From IMG/VR virus record IMGVR_UViG_3300002334_000164, positions 1-63,319 of that record: a stretch of 63,319 nt of DNA; one strand, 5' to 3'. Below, in pieces: positions 29,515 through 38,719 of this stretch. This DNA is from a virus. The position numbers and the translations under genes were made by a program. Below the pieces are notes generated by a model, which searched no databases, was not told the origin of the DNA, and saw only the letters and a list, made by a program, of their open reading frames with translations. Position 1 is the first letter of the stretch, and every line of letters starts with the position of its first letter.

Positions 29515-30071
29515 ATTACTGGGATACTCAAGCATCGGATTTTGGGGTTTTGTCGCTCGGAGCTGACAATTGGGAGAGGGTCCACGACTATCAGGTACGG
29601 CTTCTACAAGAGAGATTGCCCGACAAGCATGGTAGGGTGCTCGAAATTGGTGGCGGCGTGGGTCGACTGGGCATTCCTCTTGCTAAGGAAAATCCTGATC
29701 TCTTCTTCACGAATTACGATACGTCTGAGGAGATGCTCAAGGAGTTCACTAAACGCAGTAAGGATGTTGAGAACATCGTGGGCTGTGACACTTTGACGAC
29801 CGGGCTAAGGTTTGATCTGGTTTTTTGTGTCCTAGTGATTCAGCACAACGACCTTGACAGTGTCAACAAGTTGATGTCTTTGATCGTTCTGGCATCCAGA
29901 CCGTATGCACGGATCCTTGTGCAGTTTGTCCGAGGCGACAAGTACACAGCTCATGGTCCGCGCTCATTCGATTATTCGATGGAGCAGATTGAGACCTTTT
30001 TGCCAGGGGCCAAGTTCTTCAAGGATGAGTCAGGTTATGCAGATTCTTGGTGGTGGGCAGAAATTCAATAG
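29511..30071 (+). CDS. Class I SAM-dependent methyltransferase
   Basis: A 186-residue protein starting at GTG 29511, with motif I VLEIGGGVGRLGIPLA and the acidic end of strand 2 (FTNYDTSEEML). FDLVFCVLVIQHND is motif IV/post-motif and VQFVRGDKY follows. It is a small-molecule or macromolecule methyltransferase; the W-rich tail ends SWWWAEIQ. The target is unknown. It directly precedes the tRNA region. Confidence 0.75.
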   Translation: MNYWDTQASDFGVLSLGADNWERVHDYQVRLLQERLPDKHGRVLEIGGGVGRLGIPLAKENPDLFFTNYDTSEEMLKEFTKRSKDVENIVGCDTLTTGLRFDLVFCVLVIQHNDLDSVNKLMSLIVLASRPYARILVQFVRGDKYTAHGPRSFDYSMEQIETFLPGAKFFKDESGYADSWWWAEIQ

Positions 30072-30078
30072 GTTTGAC

Positions 30079-30107
30079 TTGCATTGTTGTTAGACGTGGT
30101 GTAGTGT
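30079..30107 (+). promoter_or_regulatory. Candidate promoter of the tRNA island
   Basis: TTGCAT (30079-30084), a 17-bp spacer and TAGTGT (30102-30107) lie right after the methyltransferase stop. A start near 30114 would transcribe the first tRNAs and the 42-residue gene. Confidence 0.4.
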
Positions 30108-30288
30108 TCATCTCGTAGCTCGGAGCGCGACTTTCGGTCAGGGTGGTCGCTGCATACGAGCCGCAGAGGACTGGGTGTGGAAATTAGCAGCCCACCCAGT
30201 TCTCAGTTCTCAAGGAAGGAAAAGCTACAAGAGGTGGTTATACTGCCGAAGAAGCATGTAGCAGTCAAGTCGAGAGGAGGCTCCCGCA
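30108..30288. other. Leader region of the tRNA island
   Basis: About 180 bases with no tRNA or convincing gene. A hairpin with an 8-bp stem, ACTGGGTG (30170-30177) / CACCCAGT (30193-30200), is present. The end holds the strong ribosome site GAGAGGAGG for the next small gene. Confidence 0.4.
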
Positions 30289-30417
30289 ATGTATGTGAAA
30301 GATTTTACAGAACAGAATCGGTTGAAGTCGACGACCAGTGTGGTCGATCCTCGGCATTCCCAGCGACCGGGTCGCGGGATCTGCGGTGGCACCACAGTCT
30401 GGGGCTGGCAAGCGTAA
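30289..30417 (+). CDS. Hypothetical 42-residue protein before the tRNAs
   Basis: Reads MYVKDFTEQNRLKSTTSVVD and ends GGTTVWGWQA. It is supported mainly by a very good ribosome site (GAGAGGAGG, eight bases from ATG) and by sitting between the promoter and the first tRNA. Function unknown. Confidence 0.5.
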   Translation: MYVKDFTEQNRLKSTTSVVDPRHSQRPGRGICGGTTVWGWQA

Positions 30418-30440
30418 CACCTTCGGGTGGCCTCTATCTT

Positions 30441-30511
30441 AGGGGTGCTGATTGGTCAGACTGAGGTCTCCAAAACCTCAAGGCGGGGTTCGATCCCCCG
30501 TACCCCTGCCA
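30441..30511 (+). tRNA. tRNA-Trp (CCA)
   Basis: Acceptor AGGGGTG/TACCCCT, anticodon loop CTCCAAA with anticodon CCA, T arm CGGGG-TTCGATC-CCCCG, discriminator G and encoded CCA. Reads TGG. Confidence 0.92.
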
Positions 30512-30516
30512 AATAT

Positions 30517-30592
30517 GCCGGTCACGCAGGTGTGGACTTGCACTTCTCTTGTAAAGAAGACTGACGGGGTTCGACTCCCCGGTCCGGCTCCA
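30517..30592 (+). tRNA. tRNA-Thr (TGT)
   Basis: Acceptor GCCGGTC/GTCCGGC (one T-T mismatch), anticodon stem-loop CTTCT-CTTGTAA-AGAAG with anticodon TGT, encoded CCA. Reads ACA/ACG. Confidence 0.9.
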
Positions 30593-30605
30593 AGTAAGTA
30601 AGTAT

Positions 30606-30680
30606 GCGACTATAGTGTAGTTGGTAACATCTCTGCCTTCCAAGCAGATGTCGTCGGTTCGAGTCCGTCTAGTCGCTCCA
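30606..30680 (+). tRNA. tRNA-Gly (TCC)
   Basis: Acceptor GCGACTA/TAGTCGC, anticodon stem TCTGC/GCAGA with loop CTTCCAA, anticodon TCC, discriminator T, encoded CCA. Reads GGA/GGG. Confidence 0.92.
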
Positions 30681-30690
30681 ACTGAATATT

Positions 30691-30760
30691 GCTCCCTAGC
30701 ATAACGGTAGTGCTACTGGTTCTGATCCAGTCAAGTCCGAGTTCGACTCTCGGGGGAGCA
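30691..30760 (+). tRNA. tRNA-Gln (CTG)
   Basis: Acceptor GCTCCCT/GGGGAGC, anticodon stem ACTGG/CCAGT with loop TTCTGAT, anticodon CTG. CCA is not encoded. Reads CAG. Confidence 0.9.
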
Positions 30761-30820
30761 TCGAAAGGTCTACTAGCTGGTAGACAATTGAACATTGAGA
30801 ACTGAATAGATCTGCCATAA

Positions 30821-30880
30821 TTAGTCAGTAGATCCCTACTTGCGCCCTGTATGGGTCTCAAGTGGTACTCTACTGACTAA
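30821..30880 (+). ncRNA. Inter-tRNA structured RNA (60 nt)
   Basis: A perfect 12-bp stem TTAGTCAGTAGA (30821-30832) / TCTACTGACTAA (30869-30880) encloses a second 7-bp stem CTACTTG/CAAGTGG and a CCC/GGG tip. It is not a tRNA. It stands between tRNA-Gln and tRNA-Asp, with a smaller GTCTAC/GTAGAC hairpin at 30768-30785 before it. Confidence 0.5.
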
Positions 30881-30884
30881 ATAA

Positions 30885-30955
30885 GGTCCTGTGGTGTAAC
30901 GGTAACACGCCAGCTTGTCAAGCTGTAGTCGGGGGTTCAACTCCCCTCAGGACCG
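30885..30955 (+). tRNA. tRNA-Asp (GTC)
   Basis: Acceptor GGTCCTG/CAGGACC, anticodon loop TTGTCAA with anticodon GTC, T arm GGGGG-TTCAACT-CCCCT, discriminator G. CCA not encoded. Reads GAC/GAT. Confidence 0.9.
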
Positions 30956-30959
30956 CTAA

Positions 30960-30995
30960 CGGGAAGTACTGGGTTCGATTCCCAGCACGCGAGCC
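30960..30995 (+). pseudogene. tRNA 3' fragment
   Basis: A perfect T arm CTGGG-TTCGATT-CCCAG (30969-30985) is followed by an acceptor-like CACGCGAGCC, but no D arm, anticodon arm or matching 5' acceptor lies upstream because tRNA-Asp ends at 30955. At about 31032-31069 a D-arm-like piece (GAGGTGTAATGGC) looks like the 5' part of another broken tRNA. Confidence 0.5.
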
Positions 30996-31069
30996 TCATA
31001 GTCTGCAGACTTTGGGGTGGTATCTATAGGTGCCTGCTGCGAGGTGTAATGGCTGCACGCCCGTGTTCT

Positions 31070-31142
31070 GCCCTGACCTGTGGATTCAGGCACCGAGATT
31101 ACGAATCTTGGCTGCGGGGTTCAATTCCCCGTCGGGGCACCA
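31070..31142 (+). tRNA. tRNA-Arg (ACG)
   Basis: Acceptor GCCCTGA/TCGGGGC, anticodon stem CGAGA/TCTTG with loop TTACGAA, anticodon ACG, encoded CCA. Reads CGT, and CGC/CGA if A34 is deaminated. Confidence 0.88.
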
Positions 31143-31149
31143 TACTACT

Positions 31150-31223
31150 GGGGCAGCATGTACCAAGGCTGGCGAGTCTCTCTTGCAAAGAGACTGTGAA
31201 GGGTTCGATTCCCTTCTGCTCCA
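31150..31223 (+). tRNA. tRNA-Ala (TGC)
   Basis: Acceptor GGGGCAG/CTGCTCC with the alanine identity pair G3-U70, anticodon loop CTTGCAA, anticodon TGC, discriminator A. CCA not encoded. Reads GCA/GCG. Confidence 0.92.
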
Positions 31224-31247
31224 CAACTTCTGTGTTACTATTCGGAT

Positions 31248-31634
31248 GTGATTTTCAGTCCGTATGACAAACATGGTTACACGCAGGGATCAGTGCAGGC
31301 AATCCTTGATCGGAAGCACGAAATGATGAGGGGTGGGCGCTCGAACAACATGAGCTACAAGATGGCTTACTGTGAGTGGCGAGACGGGTCGTTCTGCTAC
31401 TGGTGCAATCGTGAATTAGACATGTTGGATAAGAAGTCATTGATCCGCCCTACTCTCGACCATTTCCTCCCTGCCTGCCATGGCGGTCATAAGGTAGTCG
31501 AAAATCTTGTGCTCGCTTGCTACTACTGTAATCTCTACAGGGGTTCGACGCCTGCTTCGGCGACCTGCCTCTACTTGAAACATCGACAGGTGATCATGTG
31601 GATCATCCGAAGAATGCGAAGACAGTTCAGATAA
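31248..31634 (+). CDS. HNH endonuclease inside the tRNA island
   Basis: A 128-residue HNH nuclease: CYWCNRELDM, then TLDHFLPACHGG with the catalytic His, then ENLVLACYYCNLYRG with the second Cys pair and Asn. It starts at GTG 31248, 24 bases after tRNA-Ala. Free-standing HNH genes inside tRNA arrays are commonly homing endonucleases that spread by cutting unoccupied sites, so it may have inserted here. Its own mobility is inference. Confidence 0.8.
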   Translation: MIFSPYDKHGYTQGSVQAILDRKHEMMRGGRSNNMSYKMAYCEWRDGSFCYWCNRELDMLDKKSLIRPTLDHFLPACHGGHKVVENLVLACYYCNLYRGSTPASATCLYLKHRQVIMWIIRRMRRQFR

Positions 31635-31644
31635 ATGTCCTTGC

Positions 31645-31748
31645 GCCAGGCAAGGTGAGCGTCCTGAGGTTCATGGCCTACAGGAAACTAAACGAGAGCA
31701 CCGCATCGAGCCACCCTTCGGGGCATGGGGACAAGGGACTCACCTGGC
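31645..31748 (+). ncRNA. Inter-tRNA structured RNA (about 104 nt)
   Basis: Closing stems GCCAG (31645-31649) / CTGGC (31744-31748) and GTGAG (31655-31659) / CTCAC (31739-31743) enclose TCCTG/CAGGA and CCC/GGG hairpins. It lies between the HNH gene and tRNA-Glu in a stretch with no open frame. Confidence 0.35.
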
Positions 31749-31753
31749 AGTAA

Positions 31754-31825
31754 GCCCCCATGGTCTAATGGCGAAGACGTCAGATTCTCAGTCTGAAGAT
31801 CCGGGTTCAACTCCCGGTGGGGGTA
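31754..31825 (+). tRNA. tRNA-Glu (CTC)
   Basis: Acceptor GCCCCCA/TGGGGGT, anticodon stem TCAGA/TCTGA with loop TTCTCAG, anticodon CTC, discriminator A. CCA not encoded. Reads GAG. Confidence 0.9.
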
Positions 31826-31865
31826 CGCATATTAGCTAACGCTGGGGTTCCGCCCTAGTGCCACG

Positions 31866-31903
31866 GGATAACTTAATTTGCTGGCCTCGGCCCGCTGTTA
31901 TCC
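31866..31903 (+). ncRNA. Inter-tRNA hairpin with T-arm-like sequence after it
   Basis: GGATAAC (31866-31872) pairs with GTTATCC (31897-31903), and the loop holds a GGCC/GGCC self-complement. A weak T-arm-like GCAGTTCGACTCTGT follows at about 31910, so the segment could be a decayed tRNA. Confidence 0.35.
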
Positions 31904-31930
31904 GCGGCGGCAGTTCGACTCTGTGTGTGG

Positions 31931-31938
31931 ATGCCGAT
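31931..31938 (+). promoter_or_regulatory. WhiG/FliA-type -10 box candidate
   Basis: GCCGATAG differs by one base from the WhiG/FliA -10 consensus GCCGATAA and lies nine bases before ATG 31947. There is no clear TAAA-type -35 at the usual distance. Confidence 0.25.
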
Positions 31939-31946
31939 AGATAGAT

Positions 31947-32465
31947 ATGGCACGACCACTTTCCAGTAACGATGGACACATAGTCCGGTTGGCTCCTTCG
32001 TTGGTCCCGATCGGAGACGTAAAGGCTGCCCTCGGTGAAGAACCGACATGGGCCGACTATAAGACCTGGATTCTTACCGGTCCAGCTATCTGGTACGACA
32101 AGGACGTCGGCTACGTCACGGTACCTTCGGGGTTCATGACAGACTTCGCTTCGATACCGTTCTTCTTCAGGTGGTGGCAAACAGGCGGAACTGGTCCTCA
32201 AAGGATCGCTTCCTACTTCCATGACTACATGTATTCGGAGCAGCTTTTCTCCAAGAAGGATGCTGACCGGATATTTCGTGAGGTCATGCAGGCCGCTAGA
32301 CCTAAGGGCGGCAGGATACGTCATTTCCGTTCGATGTTGCGCCGCAATGTTATGTGGTTGGCGCTGAGAGTCGGAGGTATCTTTGCTTGGCGTTCTAACG
32401 GCAAGAAGCTGGCTAGTCTAGGTACTGGTTGGCGAGTAGCTTCGGAGTGTGGCGCAGCTTGGTAG
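31947..32465 (+). CDS. DUF1353-family protein, 3' end inside a tRNA gene
   Basis: A 172-residue DUF1353 protein. The core VTVPSGFMTDFASIPFFFRW and YFHDYMYSEQLFSKKDADRI hold the family's invariant Asp/Ser and His-Asp-Tyr residues. DUF1353 is a small family of unknown function seen mostly in phages. Its last eight codons (SECGAAW) and stop run 23 bases into tRNA-Pro, so the transcript cannot give both full mRNA and mature tRNA from one copy. Confidence 0.78.
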   Translation: MARPLSSNDGHIVRLAPSLVPIGDVKAALGEEPTWADYKTWILTGPAIWYDKDVGYVTVPSGFMTDFASIPFFFRWWQTGGTGPQRIASYFHDYMYSEQLFSKKDADRIFREVMQAARPKGGRIRHFRSMLRRNVMWLALRVGGIFAWRSNGKKLASLGTGWRVASECGAAW

Positions 32466-32519
32466 CGCACTTGATTTGGGATCAAGGGGCCGAGAGTTCG
32501 AATCTCTCCACTCCGACCA
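32443..32519 (+). tRNA. tRNA-Pro (TGG), copy 1
   Basis: Acceptor CGGAGTG/CACTCCG, anticodon stem CTTGA/TCAAG with loop TTTGGGA, anticodon TGG and G37 as usual for proline, encoded CCA. Its first 23 bases overlap the DUF1353 gene. Confidence 0.9.
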
Positions 32520-32660
32520 TTTAAGACCTACGGTTATTCAGAGGACCCACCATGAGTCTCCACCTAGGTGAGACAAGGAAATGTGGAAAAGGCTTTGAAC
32601 GTTCCAGGACTATCTACATGAACGCATAAACTGTGGTGGTGCAGTGGGAACTCTCGTGAG

Positions 32661-32674
32661 GTCACCGCGGTGAC
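32661..32674. repeat. 14-bp perfect palindrome
   Basis: GTCACCGCGGTGAC is identical to its reverse complement. It lies in the 197-bp gap between the two tRNA-Pro genes, where a 10-bp palindrome CACCTAGGTG also occurs at 32561-32570. No gene larger than 25 codons is visible there. Confidence 0.5.
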
Positions 32675-32716
32675 AACTCCTTCTCGGCAGTGAGGCTTGA
32701 GGTAGCTGCTGAACAA

Positions 32717-32794
32717 CTGGATGAGGACCATGAGGAAGGTCACCTGGTTTGGAGCCAGGATATCGTGTGGGTTCGAATCCCACCATCCAGACCA
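32717..32794 (+). tRNA. tRNA-Pro (TGG), copy 2
   Basis: Acceptor CTGGATG/CATCCAG, anticodon stem CCTGG/CCAGG with loop TTTGGAG, anticodon TGG, encoded CCA. It has A37 where proline tRNAs usually have G37, and its sequence is unlike copy 1. Confidence 0.82.
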
Positions 32795-32810
32795 AACACA
32801 AAGGAGAAAT

Positions 32811-32960
32811 ATGTTAGGTCGGCTAATCAAGACCATCACAAAGACTGCGACGAAAACAATAACGGAGCTTCCAACTACCGTGATCGGAGTCGTTGAAGGA
32901 ACTATCGAAGGAGTCGAAGAGGGTTTGAAGACTCTCGGCGACAAGATCGAAGGTAAGTAG
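32811..32960 (+). CDS. Small amphipathic protein
   Basis: A 49-residue protein, MLGRLIKTITKTATKTITEL, then PTTVIGVVEGTIEGVEEGLK. Start ATG 32811 has AAAGGAGAAAT upstream. It resembles an amphipathic, toxin- or membrane-active-like helix, but nothing assigns a role. It lies between tRNA-Pro and tRNA-Asn. Confidence 0.55.
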   Translation: MLGRLIKTITKTATKTITELPTTVIGVVEGTIEGVEEGLKTLGDKIEGK

Positions 32961-33047
32961 AGTCTCCCGCCAGGGGGAGGGTTTGAACCAAATCCTGGCA
33001 GCATGCAAAACTCACGTCGGAGTAACTGCCCGACATCATGTGAGACT
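32961..33047 (+). ncRNA. Inter-tRNA structured RNA, cloverleaf-like (87 nt)
   Basis: A closing stem AGTCTC (32961-32966) / GAGACT (33042-33047) encloses hairpins GCCAGG (32969-32974) / CCTGGC (32994-32999) and GTCGG (33016-33020) / CCGAC (33030-33034). On neither strand does it give a normal anticodon or T arm. It starts right after the previous stop codon. Confidence 0.4.
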
Positions 33048-33094
33048 CTTCCCATTCTTTGCCGATTAGTAACCGTCGAATGAATGGGCTATAC

Positions 33095-33141
33095 GCACCC
33101 GTGCCTCGCTGGGGTCCTTTGGCTCCTGAGGTTGCGGGTGC
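33095..33141 (+). ncRNA. Inter-tRNA hairpin (47 nt)
   Basis: GCACCCG (33095-33101) pairs with CGGGTGC (33135-33141), with further pairing possible inside. It ends five bases before tRNA-Asn. Confidence 0.4.
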
Positions 33142-33145
33142 ACTT

Positions 33146-33219
33146 TGTAACCGGGCCCTCTGGGCGGGGGCGCGTGACTGTTAATCACGATGCGCTGGGT
33201 TCGAATCCCAGGGTTACAG
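33146..33219 (+). tRNA. tRNA-Asn (GTT)
   Basis: Acceptor TGTAACC/GGTTACA, anticodon stem CGTGA/TCACG with loop CTGTTAA, anticodon GTT, T arm CTGGG-TTCGAAT-CCCAG, discriminator G. CCA not encoded. Reads AAC/AAT. Confidence 0.9.
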
Positions 33220-33221
33220 CT

Positions 33222-33271
33222 TTGGTAGTCGGTGGACTTGGACAACAGTATGTCATTCTGTCGATTACCAA
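33222..33271 (+). ncRNA. Inter-tRNA hairpin (50 nt)
   Basis: TTGGTA (33222-33227) pairs with TACCAA (33266-33271), extended by TCG/CGA after one mismatch. It fills the gap between tRNA-Asn and tRNA-His. Confidence 0.4.
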
Positions 33272-33275
33272 TCAT

Positions 33276-33352
33276 GGGGCGAAAGGCAAAGTCGGTGCGC
33301 CGCCAGGATGTGGCCCTGGTGCAAGCGGGTTCAACCCCCGCTCGTCCCTCCA
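33276..33352 (+). tRNA. tRNA-His (GTG)
   Basis: Acceptor GGGGCGA/TCGTCCC, anticodon stem CCAGG/CCTGG with loop ATGTGGC, anticodon GTG, T arm GCGGG-TTCAACC-CCCGC, discriminator T, encoded CCA. The bacterial His hallmark G-1:C73 is not obvious. Confidence 0.82.
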
Positions 33353-33356
33353 ATTT

Positions 33357-33432
33357 GCCCCGGTGCTGTGCTGGTTCGGCAATCAGGTTTTCAACCTGGT
33401 GAACGCGGGTTCGATTCCCGTCCGGGGTTCCA
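33357..33432 (+). tRNA. tRNA-Glu (TTC)
   Basis: Acceptor GCCCCGG/CCGGGGT, anticodon stem TCAGG/CCTGG with loop TTTTCAA, anticodon TTC, T arm GCGGG-TTCGATT-CCCGT, encoded CCA. Reads GAA/GAG. Confidence 0.85.
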
Positions 33433-33662
33433 AACGAATAGCTGAGACTATGCGAATAGGCCTAGCTTGGATAGGCATTCCTTACCAAAGGTGCTATATT
33501 CACAGCTGTTGTAAATAACGGTGTTCTGGTAAATCTAGCGCAGTCTGGAATATGGCTGTCTCTCTTCCCTTCGGGAGAGCTTATATCATAGGGCCGGGGT
33601 GGTTACCCGTGTGCCCAACGTTTGAGGCTGTATGCGTTTCACCAACGAACACGAAGGGACAT
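33433..33662. other. 230-bp gap with hairpins, no gene seen
   Basis: No tRNA or plausible ORF. GCCTA/TAGGC and GAAT/ATTC pair near 33454-33480. A CTCTtCCC-TTC-GGGAGAG stem lies at about 33569-33589, and GGGT/ACCC pair near 33597-33609. Possibly a transcription or processing boundary in the island. Confidence 0.35.
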
Positions 33663-33739
33663 GATCGTATAGCTCAGATGGCTAGAGCGCTTCCTTGACG
33701 TGGAAGAGGCCGCAGGTTCAAGTCCTGCTATGATCACCA
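33663..33739 (+). tRNA. tRNA-Val (GAC)
   Basis: Acceptor GATCGTA/TATGATC, anticodon stem CTTCC/GGAAG with loop TTGACGT, anticodon GAC, T arm GCAGG-TTCAAGT-CCTGC, discriminator A, encoded CCA. Reads GTC/GTT. Confidence 0.9.
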
Positions 33740-33744
33740 AATAT

Positions 33745-33821
33745 GGGCGTGTAGTTTAGTTGGCTAAAATACCTCTTTTACAAGGAGAAGATCGTGGGTT
33801 CGAGTCCCACTTCGCCCACCA
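33745..33821 (+). tRNA. tRNA-Val (TAC)
   Basis: Acceptor GGGCGTG/TTCGCCC with one T-T mismatch, anticodon loop TTTACAA with anticodon TAC on an imperfect stem CCTCT/GGAGA, T arm GTGGG-TTCGAGT-CCCAC, encoded CCA. Reads GTA/GTG. Confidence 0.8.
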
Positions 33822-33833
33822 ATTTAAGTTCGA

Positions 33834-33907
33834 TGCGCGGTAGTCTAACGGTACGACGGGGGACTCATAATCCTCAGATCCGGGTTCAATTCCCGGCTGC
33901 GCCACCA
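33834..33907 (+). tRNA. tRNA-Met (CAT), copy 1
   Basis: Acceptor TGCGCGG/CTGCGCC has a mismatched first pair (T1-C72), anticodon stem GGGGA/TCCTC with loop CTCATAA, anticodon CAT, encoded CCA. An unpaired 1-72 position is an initiator-tRNA trait, but the three G:C pairs next to the anticodon loop are absent. It could be elongator, initiator-like or a lysidine-type Ile tRNA. Confidence 0.8.
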
Positions 33908-33908
33908 T

Positions 33909-33948
33909 CTAGTAGCGGTGTTTTCCTAGTGACACGCACCGCTACTAG
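33909..33948 (+). ncRNA. Inter-tRNA perfect hairpin (40 nt)
   Basis: CTAGTAGCGGTG (33909-33920) and CACCGCTACTAG (33937-33948) form a perfect 12-bp stem with a 16-nt loop, two bases after the CCA of tRNA-Met and five before the next tRNA. Confidence 0.5.
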
Positions 33949-33953
33949 AACTT

Positions 33954-34026
33954 TGTGCCATCGTCCAATTGGCTAGGACGCTTCATTCATACCGAAGAAA
34001 TTCGGGTTCAATTCCCGGTGGCACGA
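33954..34026 (+). tRNA. tRNA-Met (CAT), copy 2
   Basis: Acceptor TGTGCCA/TGGCACG, anticodon stem CTTCA/CGAAG (last pair mismatched) with loop TTCATAC, anticodon CAT, T arm TCGGG-TTCAATT-CCCGG, discriminator A. CCA not encoded. It differs strongly from copy 1, so one of the two may be the lysidine-modified tRNA-Ile. Confidence 0.82.
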
Positions 34027-34036
34027 CAACAAATCT

Positions 34037-34083
34037 GGGGCTGGTCACAGCATCGTCCACGTCAATGTGGCTCGGCCAGCTCC
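34037..34083 (+). ncRNA. Inter-tRNA hairpin (47 nt)
   Basis: GGGGCTGG (34037-34044) pairs with CCAGCTCC (34076-34083), with an inner CCAC/GTGG stem. It ends five bases before tRNA-Gly. Confidence 0.45.
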
Positions 34084-34087
34084 TCTT

Positions 34088-34163
34088 GTGCGTATAGTGT
34101 TAGCGGCAAGCACATGACCTTGCCAAGGTCAAAGGATGGGTTCAAATCCCATTACGCGCTCCA
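34088..34163 (+). tRNA. tRNA-Gly (GCC)
   Basis: Acceptor GTGCGTA/TACGCGC, anticodon stem TGACC/GGTCA with loop TTGCCAA, anticodon GCC, discriminator T, encoded CCA. Reads GGC/GGT. Confidence 0.9.
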
Positions 34164-34164
34164 C

Positions 34165-34247
34165 GGGTCGACTGGGCATTGGAGAGCCCACCTGGCTGTA
34201 AACCAGACGTTTCGACTGTGGCGGTTCAACTCCGTCTCGACCCACCA
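34165..34247 (+). tRNA. tRNA-Tyr (GTA)
   Basis: Acceptor GGGTCGA/TCGACCC, anticodon loop CTGTAAA with anticodon GTA, a long class II variable arm as in bacterial Tyr, discriminator A, encoded CCA. Reads TAC/TAT. Confidence 0.92.
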
Positions 34248-34312
34248 GAAGTCAATCAGGGAGACGCGGTTCGTTGCTCCGCTCCTTGCAACGAGAGGCC
34301 CTGGTTGACTTC
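34248..34312 (+). ncRNA. Inter-tRNA structured RNA (65 nt)
   Basis: GAAGTCAA (34248-34255) pairs with TTGACTTC (34305-34312), then CAGGG/CCCTG, then an inner CGTTGC/GCAACG stem, giving about 19 bp in all. It begins at the base after the CCA of tRNA-Tyr and ends eight bases before the next tRNA. Confidence 0.55.
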
Positions 34313-34320
34313 GTTCACGA

Positions 34321-34395
34321 TCCTCTATAGTGTAATGGCCAGCACCCGAGTTTTTGGCGCTCGTAGTTTGGGTTCGAATCCCAATGGAGGTACCA
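34321..34395 (+). tRNA. tRNA-Gln (TTG)
   Basis: Acceptor TCCTCTA/TGGAGGT with an unpaired first position, anticodon stem CGAGT/GCTCG with loop TTTTGGC, anticodon TTG, T arm TTGGG-TTCGAAT-CCCAA, encoded CCA. Its 3' strand GGAGGT also forms the ribosome site of the gene that starts at the next base. Confidence 0.82.
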
Positions 34396-34557
34396 ATGGC
34401 ACCACAAGATAGAATTCTCATCTGCAAAGAATGTCTGCCCATGTTCGATCTTCGCCCTATGGAGCGTGTCGATCTGGGCATATGTGTCGAATGCGACTTG
34501 AAAGAAGTCGGCTACATGTACGAATCGGCCCTCGTCAAGAAAAGGGGAACCGAGTGA
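34396..34557 (+). CDS. Small zinc-ribbon protein using a tRNA as ribosome site
   Basis: A 53-residue protein starting MAPQDRILICKECLPMFDLR, with CKEC and CVEC about 20 residues apart, a minimal zinc ribbon. Its ATG (34396) directly follows the CCA of tRNA-Gln, and the only Shine-Dalgarno sequence, GGAGGT at 34386-34391, lies in the tRNA acceptor stem. RNase P or 3' processing of the tRNA would therefore remove its ribosome site. Confidence 0.65.
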   Translation: MAPQDRILICKECLPMFDLRPMERVDLGICVECDLKEVGYMYESALVKKRGTE

Positions 34558-34658
34558 TAGTTCTACCTAACGCCATTATCGGGATCATCATTGGAATAGT
34601 GGCTGCCTTTTCTCTCTCTAGGATTATCCGATCTCGTTCATCTGATAGTGAAGACTAG
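34554..34658 (+). CDS. 34-residue single-span membrane peptide
   Basis: Starts at GTG 34554 (GTGA overlap), reads VIVLPNAIIGIIIGIVAAFS, then LSRIIRSRSSDSED. One hydrophobic helix with a basic then acidic tail, typical of small membrane peptides. AGGGGA lies upstream. The stop's last base is the first base of the next tRNA. Confidence 0.55.
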   Translation: MIVLPNAIIGIIIGIVAAFSLSRIIRSRSSDSED

Positions 34659-34734
34659 CCTGCGTAGCCTAACTGGTAAAGGCGATGGATTTAAGATCCA
34701 TTATTTGTGGGTTCGATCCCCACCGTGGGCTCCA
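34658..34734 (+). tRNA. tRNA-Leu (TAA), class I body
   Basis: Acceptor GCCTGCG/CGTGGGC, anticodon stem ATGGA/TCCAT with loop TTTAAGA, anticodon TAA, T arm GTGGG-TTCGATC-CCCAC, discriminator T, encoded CCA. The variable region is only five bases, whereas bacterial Leu tRNAs have a long arm and A73, so its charging is uncertain. Confidence 0.8.
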
Positions 34735-34751
34735 ATCAACAAAAGGAAATC

Positions 34752-35033
34752 ATGAAAACAGTAGATCAATTTAAGTCACTAATACTGACGAATCACCCGG
34801 ACTGTCCTTACACCAGAGTACGCAATCATGTGTTTTGCGACCCGAAGGGTGAGAGGATTCTGCGACAGTATCTTTTGGACCTTAATGACGAGGGTGAGTA
34901 TCCAGACTTGGAGTTCTCCAACGCAGATGACGAGCTGTACGTTGTCACTCGGCATGGTGGCGAGATTCATTTCTTCGATGTTGTGGCTGGCGTTGAAGTA
35001 GATCGCAATTCAAGACAGAAGAATCAAGATTAG
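34752..35033 (+). CDS. Hypothetical protein inside the tRNA island
   Basis: A 93-residue protein from ATG 34752 (AAAAGGAAATC upstream), MKTVDQFKSLILTNHPDCPY. It is mixed alpha/beta with a C-terminal beta part (DELYVVTRHGGEIHFFDVVA). Its TAG stop is directly followed by tRNA-Leu (TAG). Function unknown. Confidence 0.6.
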   Translation: MKTVDQFKSLILTNHPDCPYTRVRNHVFCDPKGERILRQYLLDLNDEGEYPDLEFSNADDELYVVTRHGGEIHFFDVVAGVEVDRNSRQKNQD

Positions 35034-35109
35034 GCCTCCGTATCCCAACGGTAGAGGAAACTGGCTTAGACCCAGTTCAGTGTGAGTTCGACTCTCACCG
35101 GGGGCTCCA
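35034..35109 (+). tRNA. tRNA-Leu (TAG), class I body
   Basis: Acceptor GCCTCCG/CGGGGGC, anticodon stem ACTGG/CCAGT with loop CTTAGAC, anticodon TAG, discriminator T, encoded CCA, short variable region. The acceptor and discriminator equal those of tRNA-Arg (CCG) at 37704, suggesting a shared ancestor or a changed identity. Confidence 0.8.
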
Positions 35110-35113
35110 AAAT

Positions 35114-35199
35114 GGTAGGTTGACAGAGCCAGGTAATGTCCCTGGTTGCTAACCAGAGCGAGCCGAAAGGTTGCGGGGGTTCGAATCCCTCACCTACCG
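35114..35199 (+). tRNA. tRNA-Ser (GCT)
   Basis: Acceptor GGTAGGT/ACCTACC, anticodon stem CTGG/CCAG with loop TTGCTAA, anticodon GCT, long class II arm (GCGAGCCGAAAGGTTGC), discriminator G. CCA not encoded. Reads AGC/AGT. Confidence 0.9.
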
Positions 35200-35266
35200 C
35201 GGATGGTGCTGCGAAACCCGCACCTCAGGCTGTTCGACAGGGCCGATGTAAATTGACTGTCGACAA

Positions 35267-35351
35267 GGTGGGTGGACTGGCGACGGGCCAGCCCTGTTTT
35301 GAACGCAGGTACTGTGAAAGCAGACGAGTTCGATTCTTGCACCCACCGCCA
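35267..35351 (+). tRNA. tRNA-Ser (TGA)
   Basis: Acceptor GGTGGGT/ACCCACC, anticodon stem CCTGT/GCAGG with loop TTTGAAC, anticodon TGA, class II variable arm, discriminator G, encoded CCA. The T stem has one mismatch. Reads TCA/TCG. Confidence 0.85.
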
Positions 35352-35378
35352 ATCTAGGTTGTCCACGTCCTAGCAGCT

Positions 35379-35409
35379 GCGCCTAACGCGGGATTAAACC
35401 GTTAGGCGC
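35379..35409 (+). ncRNA. Inter-tRNA hairpin (31 nt)
   Basis: GCGCCTAAC (35379-35387) pairs perfectly with GTTAGGCGC (35401-35409) around a 13-nt loop. It lies in a 180-bp gap with further pairing such as GTTCCC/GGGAAC and GTCCTC/GAGGAC, but no gene. Confidence 0.45.
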
Positions 35410-35531
35410 CAGGTACCAAAATCGTGGAAGAGCGTTGGTTCCCCAGGATGATTGACATGGGAACATCTGGCCCGGTATTGCGTGGAGTCCTCCCTAGCCG
35501 GGGAATAAATGAGGACCTAGATCATCCACTT

Positions 35532-35617
35532 GCGTCTTGCACGTCGTAGTGCTATTAGTCTGAGGGCCATGGCTACCAAAGATGAAAAGCAGGGTTAGAG
35601 TCCCTGAGGGCGCTCCA
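35532..35617 (+). pseudogene. Degenerate tRNA-like element
   Basis: A possible acceptor GCGTCTT/AGGGCGC, T arm CAGGG-TTAGAGT-CCCTG (the T loop lacks the usual C), discriminator T and encoded CCA frame 86 bases. No proper D or anticodon arm can be drawn. It is most likely a decayed or highly altered tRNA. Confidence 0.4.
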
Positions 35618-35618
35618 T

Positions 35619-35694
35619 GCTGACGAACCGAATTGGCTAGGAACCGGATTGCAACTCCGGTATTATGGGGGTTCGAGTCCCTCCGTCAGCTCCA
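35619..35694 (+). tRNA. tRNA-Cys (GCA)
   Basis: Acceptor GCTGACG/CGTCAGC, anticodon stem CCGGA/TCCGG with loop TTGCAAC, anticodon GCA, discriminator T as expected for Cys, encoded CCA. Reads TGC/TGT. Confidence 0.92.
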
Positions 35695-35695
35695 T

Positions 35696-35773
35696 GGGTG
35701 TGTAGCAAAAGTTGGTTTTTGCAGCGGCCTTTTAAGCCGACAAACGCGGGTTCGATTCCTGTCACGCCCACCA
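35696..35773 (+). tRNA. tRNA-Lys (TTT)
   Basis: Acceptor GGGTGTG/CACGCCC, anticodon loop CTTTTAA with anticodon TTT, T arm GCGGG-TTCGATT-CCTGT, discriminator A, encoded CCA. Reads AAA/AAG. Confidence 0.88.
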
Positions 35774-35774
35774 T

Positions 35775-35846
35775 GGGTCACTATGTTAAATGGAAAACGG
35801 CAAGACTCTTAATCTTGAATTCGGGGTTCGATCCCCCGGTGACCTA
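35775..35846 (+). tRNA. tRNA-Lys (CTT)
   Basis: Acceptor GGGTCAC/GTGACCT, anticodon stem CAAGA/TCTTG with loop CTCTTAA, anticodon CTT, T arm CGGGG-TTCGATC-CCCCG, discriminator A. CCA not encoded. Reads AAG. Confidence 0.9.
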
Positions 35847-35859
35847 CGAAATACAACTA

Positions 35860-36247
35860 GGGGCTGAATAGGCTTTCGACGTTGGTGAATAGATTGTTGA
35901 CCGCAATCGGAGTTGCTCAGACTCTTGAAACAGGGCACCAAAATACACGGCGAACCAACATTCACCGTTGCTACCAGCGAGGACATCTGGTCTGCTTTCG
36001 AGCAGACTGAGCTTGTCTCTGTCTAGTAGCAGAGGGCTCAGCTGGCCCTTAGAACCCAACAGCTTGACTTCTAGCAAAGACTAGGTGGAGCACTGGACAT
36101 ACCATTGCAAGACTGTCAGGAGAGACTGACTGGTGGACGGCATAGACGGGTAACCGACTAGCCCCATAGTGGCCACTCACAGTGGCATGATTGTATCGGT
36201 CATCATGATGCATGCAACGGACGGGGGTTCGACTCCCCCCAGCTCCA
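35860..36247 (+). ncRNA. ssrA: tmRNA (transfer-messenger RNA)
   Basis: The 5' end GGGGCTGAATAGGCTTTCGA matches the tmRNA consensus. The 3' end GGGGGTTCGACTCCCCCCAG plus CTCCA supplies the T arm and acceptor. Acceptor GGGGCTG/CAGCTCC contains the G3-U70 pair read by alanyl-tRNA synthetase. An internal frame at 35949-36023 encodes a 25-residue tag, GEPTFTVATSEDIWSAFEQT then ELVSV, ending in tandem TAG TAG. An AGGGC/GCCCT pseudoknot stem follows. The tag is long, acidic and ends LVSV rather than ALAA, recalling the atypical tag of mycobacteriophage Bxz1. The tag's first codon is inferred. It rescues stalled ribosomes. CCA not encoded. Confidence 0.9.
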
Positions 36248-36257
36248 CAATTTATTT

Positions 36258-36343
36258 ACTCCCGTGGCGGAATGGTAGACGCGCTAGGTTGAGGGCCTAG
36301 TGACCGCAAGGTCGTGTGGGTTCGACTCTCACCGGGAGTACCA
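36258..36343 (+). tRNA. tRNA-Leu (GAG), class II
   Basis: Acceptor ACTCCCG/CGGGAGT, anticodon stem CTAGG/CCTAG with loop TTGAGGG, anticodon GAG, long variable arm (TGACCGCAAGGTCGT), discriminator A, encoded CCA. This is a normal bacterial-type Leu tRNA, unlike the other three Leu anticodons here. Confidence 0.93.
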
Positions 36344-36346
36344 CGT

Positions 36347-36423
36347 GGGCGTGTAGCATAACGGGTAAATGCACCCAGCTTATATCTGGGAGACAATGGG
36401 TTCAAGCCCCATTTCGCCTACCA
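36347..36423 (+). tRNA. tRNA-Ile (TAT)
   Basis: Acceptor GGGCGTG/TTCGCCT (one mismatch), anticodon stem CCCAG/CTGGG with loop CTTATAT, anticodon TAT, T arm ATGGG-TTCAAGC-CCCAT, encoded CCA. A TAT anticodon is rare in bacteria, which normally read ATA with a modified CAT tRNA. Confidence 0.85.
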
Positions 36424-36424
36424 A

Positions 36425-36497
36425 CGGCATAGACGGGCTGGTTGCCCTGGTGATTCTGATAAGATTACTGCGCTCGGTTCGATTCCTAGTATGCCGA
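36425..36497 (+). tRNA. tRNA-Ile (GAT)
   Basis: Acceptor CGGCATA/TATGCCG, anticodon stem TGATT/GATTA with loop CTGATAA, anticodon GAT, T stem with one mismatch, discriminator A. CCA not encoded. Reads ATC/ATT. Confidence 0.82.
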
Positions 36498-36503
36498 CAA
36501 CAT

Positions 36504-36579
36504 GGGTCTTTGGTGTAGTTGGATGTCACATGAGTTTGAAAAGCTTAAGGCCGGGGTTCGAGTCCCCGAGGACCCACCA
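36504..36579 (+). tRNA. tRNA-Phe (GAA)
   Basis: Acceptor GGGTCTT/AGGACCC, anticodon stem TGAGT/GCTTA with loop TTGAAAA, anticodon GAA, T arm CGGGG-TTCGAGT-CCCCG, discriminator A, encoded CCA. Reads TTC/TTT. Confidence 0.88.
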
Positions 36580-36594
36580 ATCGAAAGGGAAGAC

Positions 36595-37698
36595 ATGACA
36601 GAAGATATTGATATCGGCAAGTTGCTGGTTGAGGCCAACGAATGTGAGGATGATTTCCGTAGATGTTTTTCCCTCGACACTGACTACGCCTTTTCTCTGA
36701 TTTCCCAGAACCAGACGTATTTCTGGGAGTACGGTCTGAAACATCGCATCAAGTCTTCGTTCAAGGGTGTCCCTAGTTTCAATCTCGATTCCTTCATGAA
36801 GCTTCACGATCTGGAACTAACTTGTTCCTACATGTTGAAGACCGCGTCGGACTATCTAGTTCTTGCAAAAGATCGAACATGGTGTGCTAACGTCGATGTT
36901 CGTGGTGATGAGATACAGGTTACTCTTGATGCTGTAACAGCAGAGCGTGCTGTCGACCTTATGGTGGCCTGCGATTTCAGTTCCTATATTTCCCCCGTTA
37001 AAGACAATCACACCTCCATGCGGTTCTGGATGATGGGGCAACACGGCATGGAGCTTCACTCTAGAGATCTAGACTTTCCCATTTTCGAGGACATCGTCAA
37101 AAGTTACCCGACTGGAGTACGCAATGCCCTCAATGAGTTGGTCAACACTCCTTTCGGAGAGTCTGGCAACATCATTCTCTTTCACGGTCCTCCAGGCACA
37201 GGCAAGACTACGGCTATTCGCGCTCTTGCTAGACACTGGAGTAAAAACATGGTCTTCAATGTGATCATCGAACCTGATGTCGTCTTCGGTTCCTATTCCA
37301 ACATCTACCAAATGAAGAATGGTGACTCTGATGACGAGGACAAGAAACTGATGTTCGTAATTGAGGACAGCGACGAACTAATCAGCGAGGACAGCAAGGC
37401 GCGTACTGGTCAAGCTTTAGCGAAATTGCTCAACATGACTGATGGCTTGATTGGACAGGGAGTGAGTTTCAATGTTATCATCACCACCAATGAACCGATC
37501 GACAAGCTACACCCTGCGCTTATCCGTCCAGGTCGTTGTTTGGCTGATATCCATTTCCCTCCTCTCACAAGAGAAGAGGCTGAGGAGCGATTCCCGGATA
37601 AGGAATTCAAAACCAAGGAAGTAACCTTGGCCGAAGCCTTTGCTCCACCACCAATTCGTTCAGAGAAGAAGGACCACCGTACTGGAACCTACCTCTAG
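36595..37698 (+). CDS. AAA+ ATPase inside the tRNA island
   Basis: A 367-residue ATPase. Residues 1-190 are a variable lead domain without recognised motifs. The AAA+ core follows: Walker A GPPGTGKT (198-205), Walker B LMFVIEDSDE (252-261), sensor 1 IITTNEP (296-302) and an arginine-finger-type IRPGR (310-314). The core resembles Bcs1/FtsH-type AAA proteins that remodel proteins as hexamers. ATG 36595 has AAAGGGAAG upstream; the frame continues upstream into tRNA-Phe but is not used. Its role in the phage is unknown. Confidence 0.82.
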   Translation: MTEDIDIGKLLVEANECEDDFRRCFSLDTDYAFSLISQNQTYFWEYGLKHRIKSSFKGVPSFNLDSFMKLHDLELTCSYMLKTASDYLVLAKDRTWCANVDVRGDEIQVTLDAVTAERAVDLMVACDFSSYISPVKDNHTSMRFWMMGQHGMELHSRDLDFPIFEDIVKSYPTGVRNALNELVNTPFGESGNIILFHGPPGTGKTTAIRALARHWSKNMVFNVIIEPDVVFGSYSNIYQMKNGDSDDEDKKLMFVIEDSDELISEDSKARTGQALAKLLNMTDGLIGQGVSFNVIITTNEPIDKLHPALIRPGRCLADIHFPPLTREEAEERFPDKEFKTKEVTLAEAFAPPPIRSEKKDHRTGTYL

Positions 37699-37703
37699 GA
37701 CAG

Positions 37704-37775
37704 GCCTCCGCTAGCGGATCTAGACTCGACCTTCCGAAGGTTGATGAAGGAGTTCAATTCTCCTCGGGGGCTCCA
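37704..37775 (+). tRNA. tRNA-Arg (CCG)
   Basis: Acceptor GCCTCCG/CGGGGGC, anticodon stem CGACC/GGTTG with loop TTCCGAA, anticodon CCG, T arm AGGAG-TTCAATT-CTCCT, discriminator T, encoded CCA. Starts five bases after the AAA+ stop codon. Reads CGG. Confidence 0.88.
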
Positions 37776-37781
37776 AGATTT

Positions 37782-37855
37782 GCCCTCGCCAGTGGATTCT
37801 GGCCGCGAGATTCCTAATTTTGCTGGTTCGGGTTCGATTCCCGACGAGGGTACCA
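37782..37855 (+). tRNA. tRNA-Arg (CCT)
   Basis: Acceptor GCCCTCG/CGAGGGT, anticodon stem CGAGA/TTTTG with loop TTCCTAA, anticodon CCT, T arm TCGGG-TTCGATT-CCCGA, discriminator A, encoded CCA. Reads AGG. Confidence 0.85.
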
Positions 37856-37856
37856 G

Positions 37857-37929
37857 GCCCTGCGCACTGGATGTGCAGTCGATGCTTCTAACTTCGACGT
37901 GTCAGGTTCGATTCCTGGGTGGGGCACCA
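37857..37929 (+). tRNA. tRNA-Arg (TCT)
   Basis: Acceptor GCCCTGC/GTGGGGC, anticodon stem CGATG/CTTCG (one mismatch) with loop CTTCTAA, anticodon TCT, discriminator A, encoded CCA. Reads AGA/AGG. Confidence 0.85.
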
Positions 37930-37977
37930 CAAGGCAGATCTATTCAGTATGCTCACTCACAGAAAAGGGAGGGAACC

Positions 37978-38487
37978 ATGATGACTACCGGAGTTCTGGT
38001 CCTCAACGCCACATTTGAACCGATCAACGTCATTCACCTTCATCGCGCTGTATGTCTCGTCGTACAGGAAAAGGCTGACGTGATTGAGTCTGTGGACGGT
38101 AAGACTTTCCGTTCGGCTAACACCGAGATTCCTTGCCCTTCTGTTGTGAAGCTTCGTTACTTTGTGAAGATTCCGTGGAAGCGAAGGCGTCCTGCAGTCA
38201 CGAATCGTAACGTTCTTGGTCGTGACAATGATACGTGTGGCTACTGCGGTGGTGAGGCGTCTACCATTGACCACATTCACCCTCGCGCCCATGGTGGTAC
38301 GAACGACTGGATGAACGTGATTGCTGCTTGTTCGCCCTGCAATAGCACGAAGAGCGACCTAACCCTTGAACAGCTTGGTTGGGAACTACTCTTCAAGCCG
38401 ACTATCCCAGCTGATAAGACATGGCTGGTGGTGGGTTGGGCTGAGCGCGAACAACAGGCTAAGTATTTGCAGCACGCGACCATATAG
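37978..38487 (+). CDS. HNH endonuclease, actinobacterial type
   Basis: A 169-residue HNH protein of a type I recall as common in actinobacterial chromosomes. The front VLVLNATFEPINVIHLHRAV is highly characteristic. The core is RDNDTCGYCGGEASTIDHIH, with PRAHGGTNDWMNVIAACSPC then NSTKSD completing the Cys4/HNH site. A start at ATG 37978 has GGGAGGGAACC upstream. It is the second HNH gene in the tRNA island and may have been taken from a host. It could act in homing or DNA processing. Confidence 0.85.
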   Translation: MMTTGVLVLNATFEPINVIHLHRAVCLVVQEKADVIESVDGKTFRSANTEIPCPSVVKLRYFVKIPWKRRRPAVTNRNVLGRDNDTCGYCGGEASTIDHIHPRAHGGTNDWMNVIAACSPCNSTKSDLTLEQLGWELLFKPTIPADKTWLVVGWAEREQQAKYLQHATI

Positions 38488-38493
38488 AGGCCT

Positions 38494-38568
38494 GCTCCTG
38501 TACCCCAATTGGTAGAGGGACCGCATTCAAAACGCGGCAACGTGAGGGTTCGACTCCCTCCAGGGGCA
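38494..38568 (+). tRNA. tRNA-Leu (CAA), class I body
   Basis: Acceptor GCTCCTG/CAGGGGC, anticodon loop TTCAAAA with anticodon CAA, stem CCGCA/CGCGG (last pair mismatched), T arm GAGGG-TTCGACT-CCCTC, discriminator A. CCA not encoded. The variable region is about six bases, too short for a normal Leu tRNA. Confidence 0.8.
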
Positions 38569-38573
38569 CTGCT

Positions 38574-38646
38574 GCCTGTGTAACTCAGTTGGTAGAGTAC
38601 TTCCATGGTAAGGAAGAAGTCCGGGGTTCGACTCCCCGCCCAGGCC
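38574..38646 (+). tRNA. tRNA-Thr (GGT)
   Basis: Acceptor GCCTGTG/CCCAGGC with one mismatch, anticodon stem CTTCC/GGAAG with loop ATGGTAA, anticodon GGT, T arm CGGGG-TTCGACT-CCCCG. CCA not encoded. It is the last tRNA of the island. Reads ACC/ACT. Confidence 0.88.
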
Positions 38647-38670
38647 CTCAGAAAAACAAATGACAATTAG

Positions 38671-38699
38671 TTGAATAAAACGTATATCCATCCGATACT
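38671..38699 (+). promoter_or_regulatory. Candidate promoter of the virion operon
   Basis: TTGAAT (38671-38676), a 17-bp spacer and GATACT (38694-38699) lie between the last tRNA and the first virion-side gene. TCCGATAC here also partly matches the WhiG/FliA -10 consensus. The ribosome site GGATGGAGGT follows. Confidence 0.5.
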
Positions 38700-38719
38700 G
38701 TTCTGGATGGAGGTACGTT

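Follow-up and report, generated by a model that had tools for sequence, protein, structure and literature searches.

Hairpins that close the gaps between the tRNA genes of a phage array, and their likeness to a stable RNA of phage T5

Stable RNAs other than tRNAs are already known from the tRNA clusters of phages T4 and T5. The records of T5 and of phage DT57C annotate RNAI and RNAIII as a "stable RNA with unknown functions" in gaps between tRNA genes, and T4 encodes rnaC and rnaD (species 1 and 2 RNA, "small, stable RNA") within its tRNA cluster, beside tRNA-Arg. In gut phages, theta ribozymes, which resemble those of hepatitis delta virus (HDV), are reported to sit right after tRNA 3' ends and are proposed to aid tRNA maturation (PMC10879173). 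Here, we describe hairpins that lie between the tRNA genes of a virus of bacteria, IMG/VR record IMGVR_UViG_3300002334_000164. The record is a fragment of 63,319 bases, and all of it, hereafter the window, was analyzed. Its tRNA array (30441 to 38647) contains 33 tRNA genes and a transfer-messenger RNA (tmRNA) called by ARAGORN, along with one more tRNA found by Rfam at 35619 to 35691; every tRNA and the tmRNA are on the plus strand, to which all hairpin coordinates below also refer. An earlier note on this DNA, made from the sequence alone, had named ten such hairpins and stated that no described class was known to its author to match them. In part this does not hold, because it overlooks the GenBank-annotated stable RNAs of T5 (RNAI, RNAIII, and others) and T4 (rnaC and rnaD). 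Like those RNAs, the hairpins of the window are encoded within a tRNA cluster and are not tRNAs.

We folded each of the ten named spans and compared it with 500 dinucleotide shuffles. Seven folded above chance, with z scores from -2.9 to -7.3. The strongest (30821 to 30880, z = -7.3) has the 12-bp perfect stem that had been described for it and a 36-nucleotide (nt) apical part with an inner stem, and it ends 4 nt before tRNA-Asp(gtc) at 30885. Three others close the gap in which they lie. Between tRNA-Asn and tRNA-His, the hairpin at 33222 to 33271 (z = -3.9) has 15 pairs, including four G-U pairs, starts at position +1 after tRNA-Asn, and ends 4 nt before tRNA-His. Between two tRNA-Met(cat) genes, a stem reported as 12 bp and perfect at 33909 to 33948 (z = -5.2 for that span) is real and in fact runs from 33908 to 33949 with 14 pairs, one of them G-U, starting directly after one tRNA and ending 4 nt short of the following one. 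The hairpin at 34248 to 34312 (z = -3.7) separates tRNA-Tyr from tRNA-Gln(ttg), starting directly after the former and ending 8 nt before the latter; it is likewise real, and the "about 19 bp" attributed to it resolve into a 14-bp outer helix with one G-U pair plus an inner helix. The hairpin between tRNA-Met and tRNA-Gly(gcc) at 34037 to 34083 (10 pairs, two of them G-U; z = -2.9, folding P = 0.006) starts at position +9 and ends 4 nt before tRNA-Gly. An interrupted stem with a 7-bp outer helix at 33095 to 33141 (z = -4.7) ends 4 nt before tRNA-Asn at 33146. The seventh hairpin, at 35379 to 35409 (z = -4.5), is a local one that does not close a gap: a 10-bp perfect helix with an 11-nt loop in a 267-nt segment, not beside a called tRNA, for which shuffles of the whole segment gave an equal helix with P = 0.027.

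The remaining three spans did not pass the same comparison convincingly. The hairpin at 32961 to 33047 is marginal (z = -1.7, P = 0.06); the segment 32961 to 33145 does fold in excess (z = -3.3), and it also includes the hairpin at 33095 to 33141. The span at 31645 to 31748 is not above chance (z = -0.9, P = 0.17), nor convincingly so is that at 31866 to 31903 (z = -2.0, P = 0.03), since an equal helix appeared in 43% of shuffles of its gap. When the array was analyzed by segment (n = 16), six segments had z scores of -3.08 or lower, namely 30763 to 30884 (-4.5), 32961 to 33145, 33221 to 33275 (-3.7), 33908 to 33953 (-6.1), 34028 to 34087 (-3.1), and 34248 to 34320 (-3.8); the other ten fell between -2.1 and +0.2. 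Helices of at least 10 bp with no more than one G-U pair numbered four in the 1,671 gap bases and 13 in the other 61,648 bases, which makes them about eleven times denser in the gaps, and shuffled gaps contained a mean of 0.19 such helices. None of the seven real hairpins matched a tRNA covariance model (Rfam, E ≤ 5), in line with the earlier statement that they are not tRNAs.

Two hairpins outside the array were also recorded. The longest helix in our list for the window belongs to a 16-bp perfect hairpin with a 15-nt loop at 26983 to 27029, just after a ribonucleotide reductase gene, so long clean helices are not unique to the tRNA array. A 12-bp hairpin with one G-U pair lies at 30166 to 30204, about 240 nt upstream of the first tRNA, and is perhaps part of a leader of the array.

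The most constant feature of the hairpins, overlooked in the first reading, is how far they end from the tRNA that follows. This distance is exactly 4 nt for five of the seven (30821, 33095, 33222, 33908, and 34037) and 8 nt for a sixth (34248). The start close to the preceding tRNA 3' end, which had been noticed, applies to three hairpins that begin 0 or 1 nt after the tRNA (33222, 33908, and 34248) and not to 34037. Two hairpins are indeed exactly 47 nt long, as reported; this has little meaning because the spans vary.

We searched for related arrays. Megablast returned no DNA neighbors of the array, and blastn with the array gave only short tRNA-sized matches, covering at most 2% of the query, among the 60 of 372 records listed. 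Searches anchored on AAA, DUF1353, sigma-factor, and HNH proteins led to no arrays besides a sister contig (L006) and a near copy, a result that leaves aside four sigma-factor matches and one HNH match, all weak, whose tRNA content was not examined. A protein from the array of the relative L119 matched only itself. The near copy, IMGVR_UViG_3300002334_000124, is 100% identical to positions 21383 to 52934 of the window over the part compared, with its first 68 bases unmatched. It therefore argues against an assembly artifact in a single record, and it carries no covariation information. So that the geometry could be tested free of bias from the window, relatives were picked via the terminase: 46 terminase-related records were searched for tRNAs, and 15 had any, the near copy included. 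The test of end pairing covered the window and six relatives (L006, L066, L067, L068, L069, and L119), and two relatives with few tRNAs (L009 and L072) were run afterwards. As controls, we used phages Jay2Jay, XacN1 (two stretches), Atu_ph07, phiCbK, T5, and Tunturi_5, none of which surfaced as terminase relatives, together with the lysT, argV, and metT tRNA operons of Escherichia coli.

For each gap of 28 to 260 nt, complementarity between the first 18 and the last 22 bases was compared with that in 2,000 shuffles. The larger window gaps, which hold the hairpins at 33095 to 33141 and 35379 to 35409, fall outside this range. Complementary ends at P < 0.01 were found in 17 of 59 gaps of the window and six relatives, or in 13 of 50 when only the six relatives are counted. 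By array, the counts were 4/9 for the window, 4/15 for L119, 5/11 for L066, 2/5 for L069, 1/5 for L067, 0/13 for L068, and 1/1 for L006; L009 and L072 contributed one of three gaps, bringing the total without the window to 14 of 53. The four gaps of the window are those of the hairpins at 33222 (P = 0.001), 33908 (P = 0.0005), 34037 (P = 0.005), and 34248 (P = 0.0005). Among the control phages only two of 52 gaps reached this threshold. The E. coli spacers, which lie untranslated between co-transcribed tRNAs as those of the array would, showed no end complementarity (0/10 gaps at P < 0.01). In Jay2Jay (L078), a Streptomyces phage, the Gly-Arg gap (1 of 16) has a closing stem (P = 0.002), and a Ro-like RNA-binding protein is encoded amid its tRNA array.

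The position of the stems relative to the next tRNA was also shared among arrays. In the 28- to 260-nt gaps of the seven arrays, 21 of 49 helices of at least 8 bp ended 2 to 5 nt before the next tRNA (10 of them at 3 nt and seven at 4 nt), compared with a mean of 2.5 and a maximum of 7 in 200 shuffled sets. One of the 21, an 81-nt "spanning helix" in the Ile-Glu gap of L068, is probably an unannotated tRNA, as it has a T-loop motif; its exclusion leaves 20 of 48. Averaged over 57 gaps, bases were paired with a probability of 0.73 to 0.86 at -5 to -11 relative to the next tRNA and of 0.74 to 0.85 at +4 to +8 relative to the preceding one, against 0.55 to 0.59 in shuffles, and positions -1 to -3 were mostly open (0.05 to 0.32). 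The corresponding values in 46 control gaps were 0.42 to 0.61 and 0.35 to 0.63.

Because MAFFT, applied to entire gaps, failed to align the 3' stem strands correctly, we compared closing pairs helix against helix at a fixed register and counted mismatches. In the Pro-Asp gap of L119 and L069, seven of 12 closing pairs were unchanged, none had changed on one side, four had changed on both sides, and one was unpaired in one of the sequences. The Glu-Gln gap of L119 and L066 gave a similar result, with 11 closing pairs divided into six unchanged, none one-sided, four two-sided, and one unpaired in one sequence. In the Pro-Asp gap of L066, three of 12 positions at fixed register were unpaired in one of the two sequences, whichever relative it was compared with; the Gly-Gln rows with L066 were out of register and were not used. 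An earlier count had relied on uninterrupted helices and the best offset, which made broken pairs invisible and favored agreement. For Pro-Asp, it gave 7/0/3 (unchanged/one-sided/two-sided) among 10 pairs for L119 and L069, 5/0/1 among six for L119 and L066, and 4/0/2 among six for L069 and L066; for Glu-Gln, it gave 6/1/2 among nine pairs; and for Gly-Gln, 6/1/0 among seven, 6/0/0 among six, and 6/1/1 among eight. In the orthologous Pro-Asp and Glu-Gln gaps of the relatives, stems persist through two-sided base changes, a sequence pattern that indicates selection in the relatives only. The compensatory changes that the earlier note had proposed to look for are present there; this does not extend to the window itself because its gaps are without a diverged orthologue.

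Little sequence is shared between different slots. Matches at E ≤ 0.05 were few, and no common stem core was seen: they comprised the orthologous Glu-Pro gaps of L069 and L119, the Ser-Thr gap of L066 with the Thr-Thr gap of L119 (before tRNA-Thr, 74% over 89 nt), and four short matches of 13 to 24 nt. A pattern scan based on the Pro-Asp gap recovered three arrays that were already known, along with a further record that was dropped because the Rfam model found just two tRNAs in it. The Gly(tcc)-Gln(ctg) gaps of three relatives are about 200 nt long, closed by a stem at their very ends, and contain a T-arm-like motif (L069, 1675 to 1882 of a reverse-complemented locus; L119, 2033 to 2228; L066, 1093 to 1314).

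The closest described counterpart of these spacers is the slot that holds RNAIII in T5. We examined 13 T5-like records, picked from the 40 listed of 485 that matched part of the query region. In 12 of them, the slot opens 1 nt past the CCA end of RNAI and extends as far as the base preceding tRNA-His, with a stem of 15 to 16 bp closing it and slot lengths of 68, 111, 126, and 148 nt; the 13th, TrudiRoth, has neither the RNAI end nor tRNA-His at that place. Each stem had P = 0.002, the minimum possible with 500 shuffles, and that of cott162 contains one mismatch. Between T5 and S113, the 15 closing pairs comprised eight unchanged, three one-sided, four two-sided, and no broken pairs. The interiors of the slot, in contrast, are of at least two kinds. 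That of S113 (68-nt slot) aligns with no other above shuffles, those of cott162 and CRW-SP5 are related (z = 6.0), and that of T5 is at best weakly like that of cott162 (P = 0.04). Like the gap-closing hairpins of the window, then, T5 RNAIII lies in a gap, here before tRNA-His, whose ends are closed by a stem, here of 15 bp. Across the T5-like records, that stem is kept while the interior differs. Unlike the gaps of the window, the slot is larger (68 to 148 nt), and its stem reaches the base before tRNA-His rather than stopping 2 to 5 nt short. The comparison covered the RNAIII slot alone, and none of the three plain T5 gaps in the end-pairing test stood out. Of the T4 RNAs, rnaD is without a closing stem and without excess folding (z = -0.8); strong folding was found for rnaC (z = -4.9), the 3' part of which resembles a T arm. 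Rfam scans of the arrays and of the T5- and T4-type regions returned only tRNA-like or weak sub-threshold families.

What might such spacers do? Taking from the seven arrays 31 pairs of tRNAs with the gap between them (35 to 110 nt), we calculated how the tRNAs fold next to the real gap or a shuffled one. With the real gap, the probability of the acceptor stem was 0.69 instead of 0.40 for the upstream tRNA and 0.68 instead of 0.38 for the downstream tRNA, and the number of pairs between spacer and tRNA was 6.4 instead of 17.0. In the Pro-Asp unit of L069, which was kept, the acceptor probability was near 0 with real and shuffled gaps alike, so the acceptor register is probably wrong there. Because real gaps keep the flanking tRNAs folded better than shuffled ones in this calculation, we read the hairpins as self-closing spacer RNAs that would insulate neighboring tRNAs within one long transcript, leave a short leader for RNase P, and be released as small RNAs. 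We give this explanation roughly an even chance of being right. Among the roles that the earlier note had listed, insulators or processing signals are the ones best backed by calculation, and related phages carry hairpins with this geometry as well; decoys for a host anti-tRNA nuclease, also on that list, are unsupported, the hairpins having no detected tRNA likeness.

From these structures we infer how the array might be transcribed and processed and how the phage might benefit. The array would be made as one long plus-strand transcript. As the bases just 3' of one tRNA pair with those just 5' of the next, the spacer would fold on itself during transcription and so could not invade the neighboring tRNAs. 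RNase P can use a short leader 5' of a tRNA, and the host enzyme would cut after the 2 to 5 unpaired bases that are typically left there, while a tRNA 3'-end nuclease would cut before the hairpin. Formation of the tRNA ends would thus free the hairpin, which might persist as a stable small RNA by analogy with T5, which has stable RNAs in such places. The benefit would be the correct folding and maturation of many crowded tRNAs, and the interior of the hairpin would be largely free to change.

Several observations weigh against this explanation or limit its reach. The insulation calculation is no proof of what is selected, because a self-folding spacer lowers cross-pairing almost by definition. 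Control phages insulate too, if more weakly (0.60 versus 0.46 upstream, 0.63 versus 0.46 downstream, and 6.9 versus 12.9 pairs; n = 17), so part of the effect is general, and some gaps did worse than their shuffles: Ser-Ser of the window (upstream, 0.36 versus 0.50), Lys-Met of L066 (downstream, 0.07 versus 0.45), and Trp-Gly of L069 (downstream, 0.00 versus 0.54). At the looser threshold of P < 0.05, complementary ends appear in six of 52 control gaps (Jay2Jay, 3/16; XacN1, 2/7; phiCbK, 1/5), compared with 22 of 59, so single closing stems may exist in those three phages as well; the pairing profile of the controls also rises elsewhere, to 0.65 to 0.73 at +14 to +18 after the preceding tRNA. 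The low counts in L068 and L067 given above mean that even relatives do not all follow the rule, and L006 was put into the end-pairing test after its hairpin had been seen. Within the window, segments 31635 to 31753, 31827 to 31946, 32520 to 32716, 33433 to 33662, and 35352 to 35618 show no excess folding as wholes. The claim that most wide gaps hold one dominant hairpin was therefore too strong; seven of the ten hairpins named are real. Hairpins are also gained and lost. Where tRNA-Leu and tRNA-Thr are 4 nt apart in the window, L006 carries an 11-bp hairpin between them, and its sequence suggests another one before tRNA-Leu, where the window has only 6 nt, so none is needed at a given place. 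In the Gly-Gln gap of L119 and L069, six of nine pairs were the same, one had changed on one side, two were unpaired, and there was no two-sided change. Finally, annotated T5 RNAIII begins 3 nt inside the closing stem, leaving 12 bp of it, and the 5' end of the RNA therefore does not simply coincide with the slot border used here.

The alternative that survives best is that the hairpins are small RNAs acting in trans, with the closing stem serving only to stabilize them. They might, for example, be regulators or sponges, for which the 3' external transcribed spacer of a tRNA operon in E. coli is a precedent. The annotated stability of RNAI and RNAIII in T5 and DT57C and of rnaC and rnaD in T4 means that such spacer RNAs can persist, and the likeness between the interiors of cott162 and CRW-SP5 means that interiors are not wholly free. 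Against this, the S113-type interior of the T5 slot cannot be aligned to the other three although all four keep the closing stem, slots share few matches, and no Rfam family appeared besides tRNA-like and weak sub-threshold ones. On balance, we regard a role in trans as unlikely.

Less likely still is that a double-strand nuclease such as RNase III recognizes the stems and cleaves there to separate the tRNA precursors. Their placement at junctions and their upkeep by two-sided changes would suit such signals. The closing helices, however, measure about 8 to 15 bp, about one helical turn, which is short for RNase III, and a scan of eight proteins near the array found no RNase domain, only nuclease domains of the DNA-type HNH and LAGLIDADG kinds.

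The palindromes could instead have their role in the DNA, for example as sites where tRNA cassettes recombine or are exchanged. That hairpins come and go between the window and its close relative L006 would fit this, and the wobble pairs leave the strand undecided (19 G-U versus 11 A-C stem positions, in stems that had been picked with RNA energies). No core sequence common to the stems was seen, though, and the usual spacing of 2 to 5 nt from the tRNA 5' end is easier to reconcile with processing than with recombination, so we hold this to be quite improbable. About as improbable, or slightly more so, are self-cleaving ribozymes that trim tRNA 3' ends. Here, the position speaks in their favor, since theta ribozymes are likewise reported as phage RNA elements directly 3' of tRNAs (PMC10879173). 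The hairpins gave no match to a ribozyme family in the array of the window (Rfam, E ≤ 5) or in the arrays of five relatives (E ≤ 0.5), a search made with no check on whether Rfam 15 includes a theta model, and they show no conserved core between slots. Moreover, an HDV-like fold is a double pseudoknot whose first helix uses a 5' strand, and in the hairpins the first bases pair with the last, so no such strand is left.

Intrinsic terminators or attenuators inside the array would also be stem-loops between genes, but we give them almost no weight: in the window, only 4 or 8 nt, with no run of T, lie between such a stem and the tRNA that it precedes, and termination would silence the tRNAs downstream. 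A terminator scan of positions 30000 to 38800 found nine sites where 7.3 were expected, none of which is any of the seven real hairpins, but the scan takes only loops of 3 to 8 nt, which puts these hairpins beyond its reach; promoter-like sites in the same region were at chance (six versus 6.2). That the hairpins are decayed tRNA genes is just as hard to credit, for although some wide gaps contain T-arm-like motifs and unannotated pieces of tRNAs, the seven real hairpins lack a tRNA match, the five that lie in gaps of 28 to 260 nt have no T-loop motif, and most stems exceed the 7-bp acceptor.

Other features of the window were noted along the way. A T-arm motif without a full tRNA lies at 30957 to 31064, and similar motifs occur in wide gaps of L066, L068, L069, and L119. 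The tmRNA at 35860 to 36248, inside the tRNA array, encodes a long tag peptide, GEPTFTVATSEDIWSAFEQTELVSV. At 37781 to 37931, there are two tRNA-like genes that ARAGORN missed; the matching stretch of L006 (646 to 790) includes a called tRNA-Arg(tct). The gene at 38720 to 40270 contains a LAGLIDADG-bearing insertion (39196 to 40124) that is absent from L006 and is probably an intein. At the contig end (63250 to 63319), the last open reading frame terminates in ...GRASCRERV, which looks like read-through into an Illumina adapter.

The literature that we searched by title contained no description of closed hairpin spacers in phage tRNA arrays, although older T4 and T5 work very likely lies outside its coverage. 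Measured against that literature, what seems to be new is that these spacers share a geometry in which the ends close, that two-sided changes preserve it while interiors change, and that it recurs along one array. We further propose, with somewhat less than even confidence, that gap-closing spacers follow a general rule for the polycistronic tRNA arrays of some phages, in which any interior would serve provided that the ends pair and a short RNase P leader is left, and in which T5 RNAIII would be a leftover of maturation rather than a regulator. A single array can hold tens of tRNAs in some phages, and the literature we found gives no settled account of how so many crowded tRNAs are correctly folded and excised. 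If true, the rule of self-closing spacers would explain both the hairpins of this array and a stable RNA of T5, and it would offer a design principle for artificial tRNA arrays.

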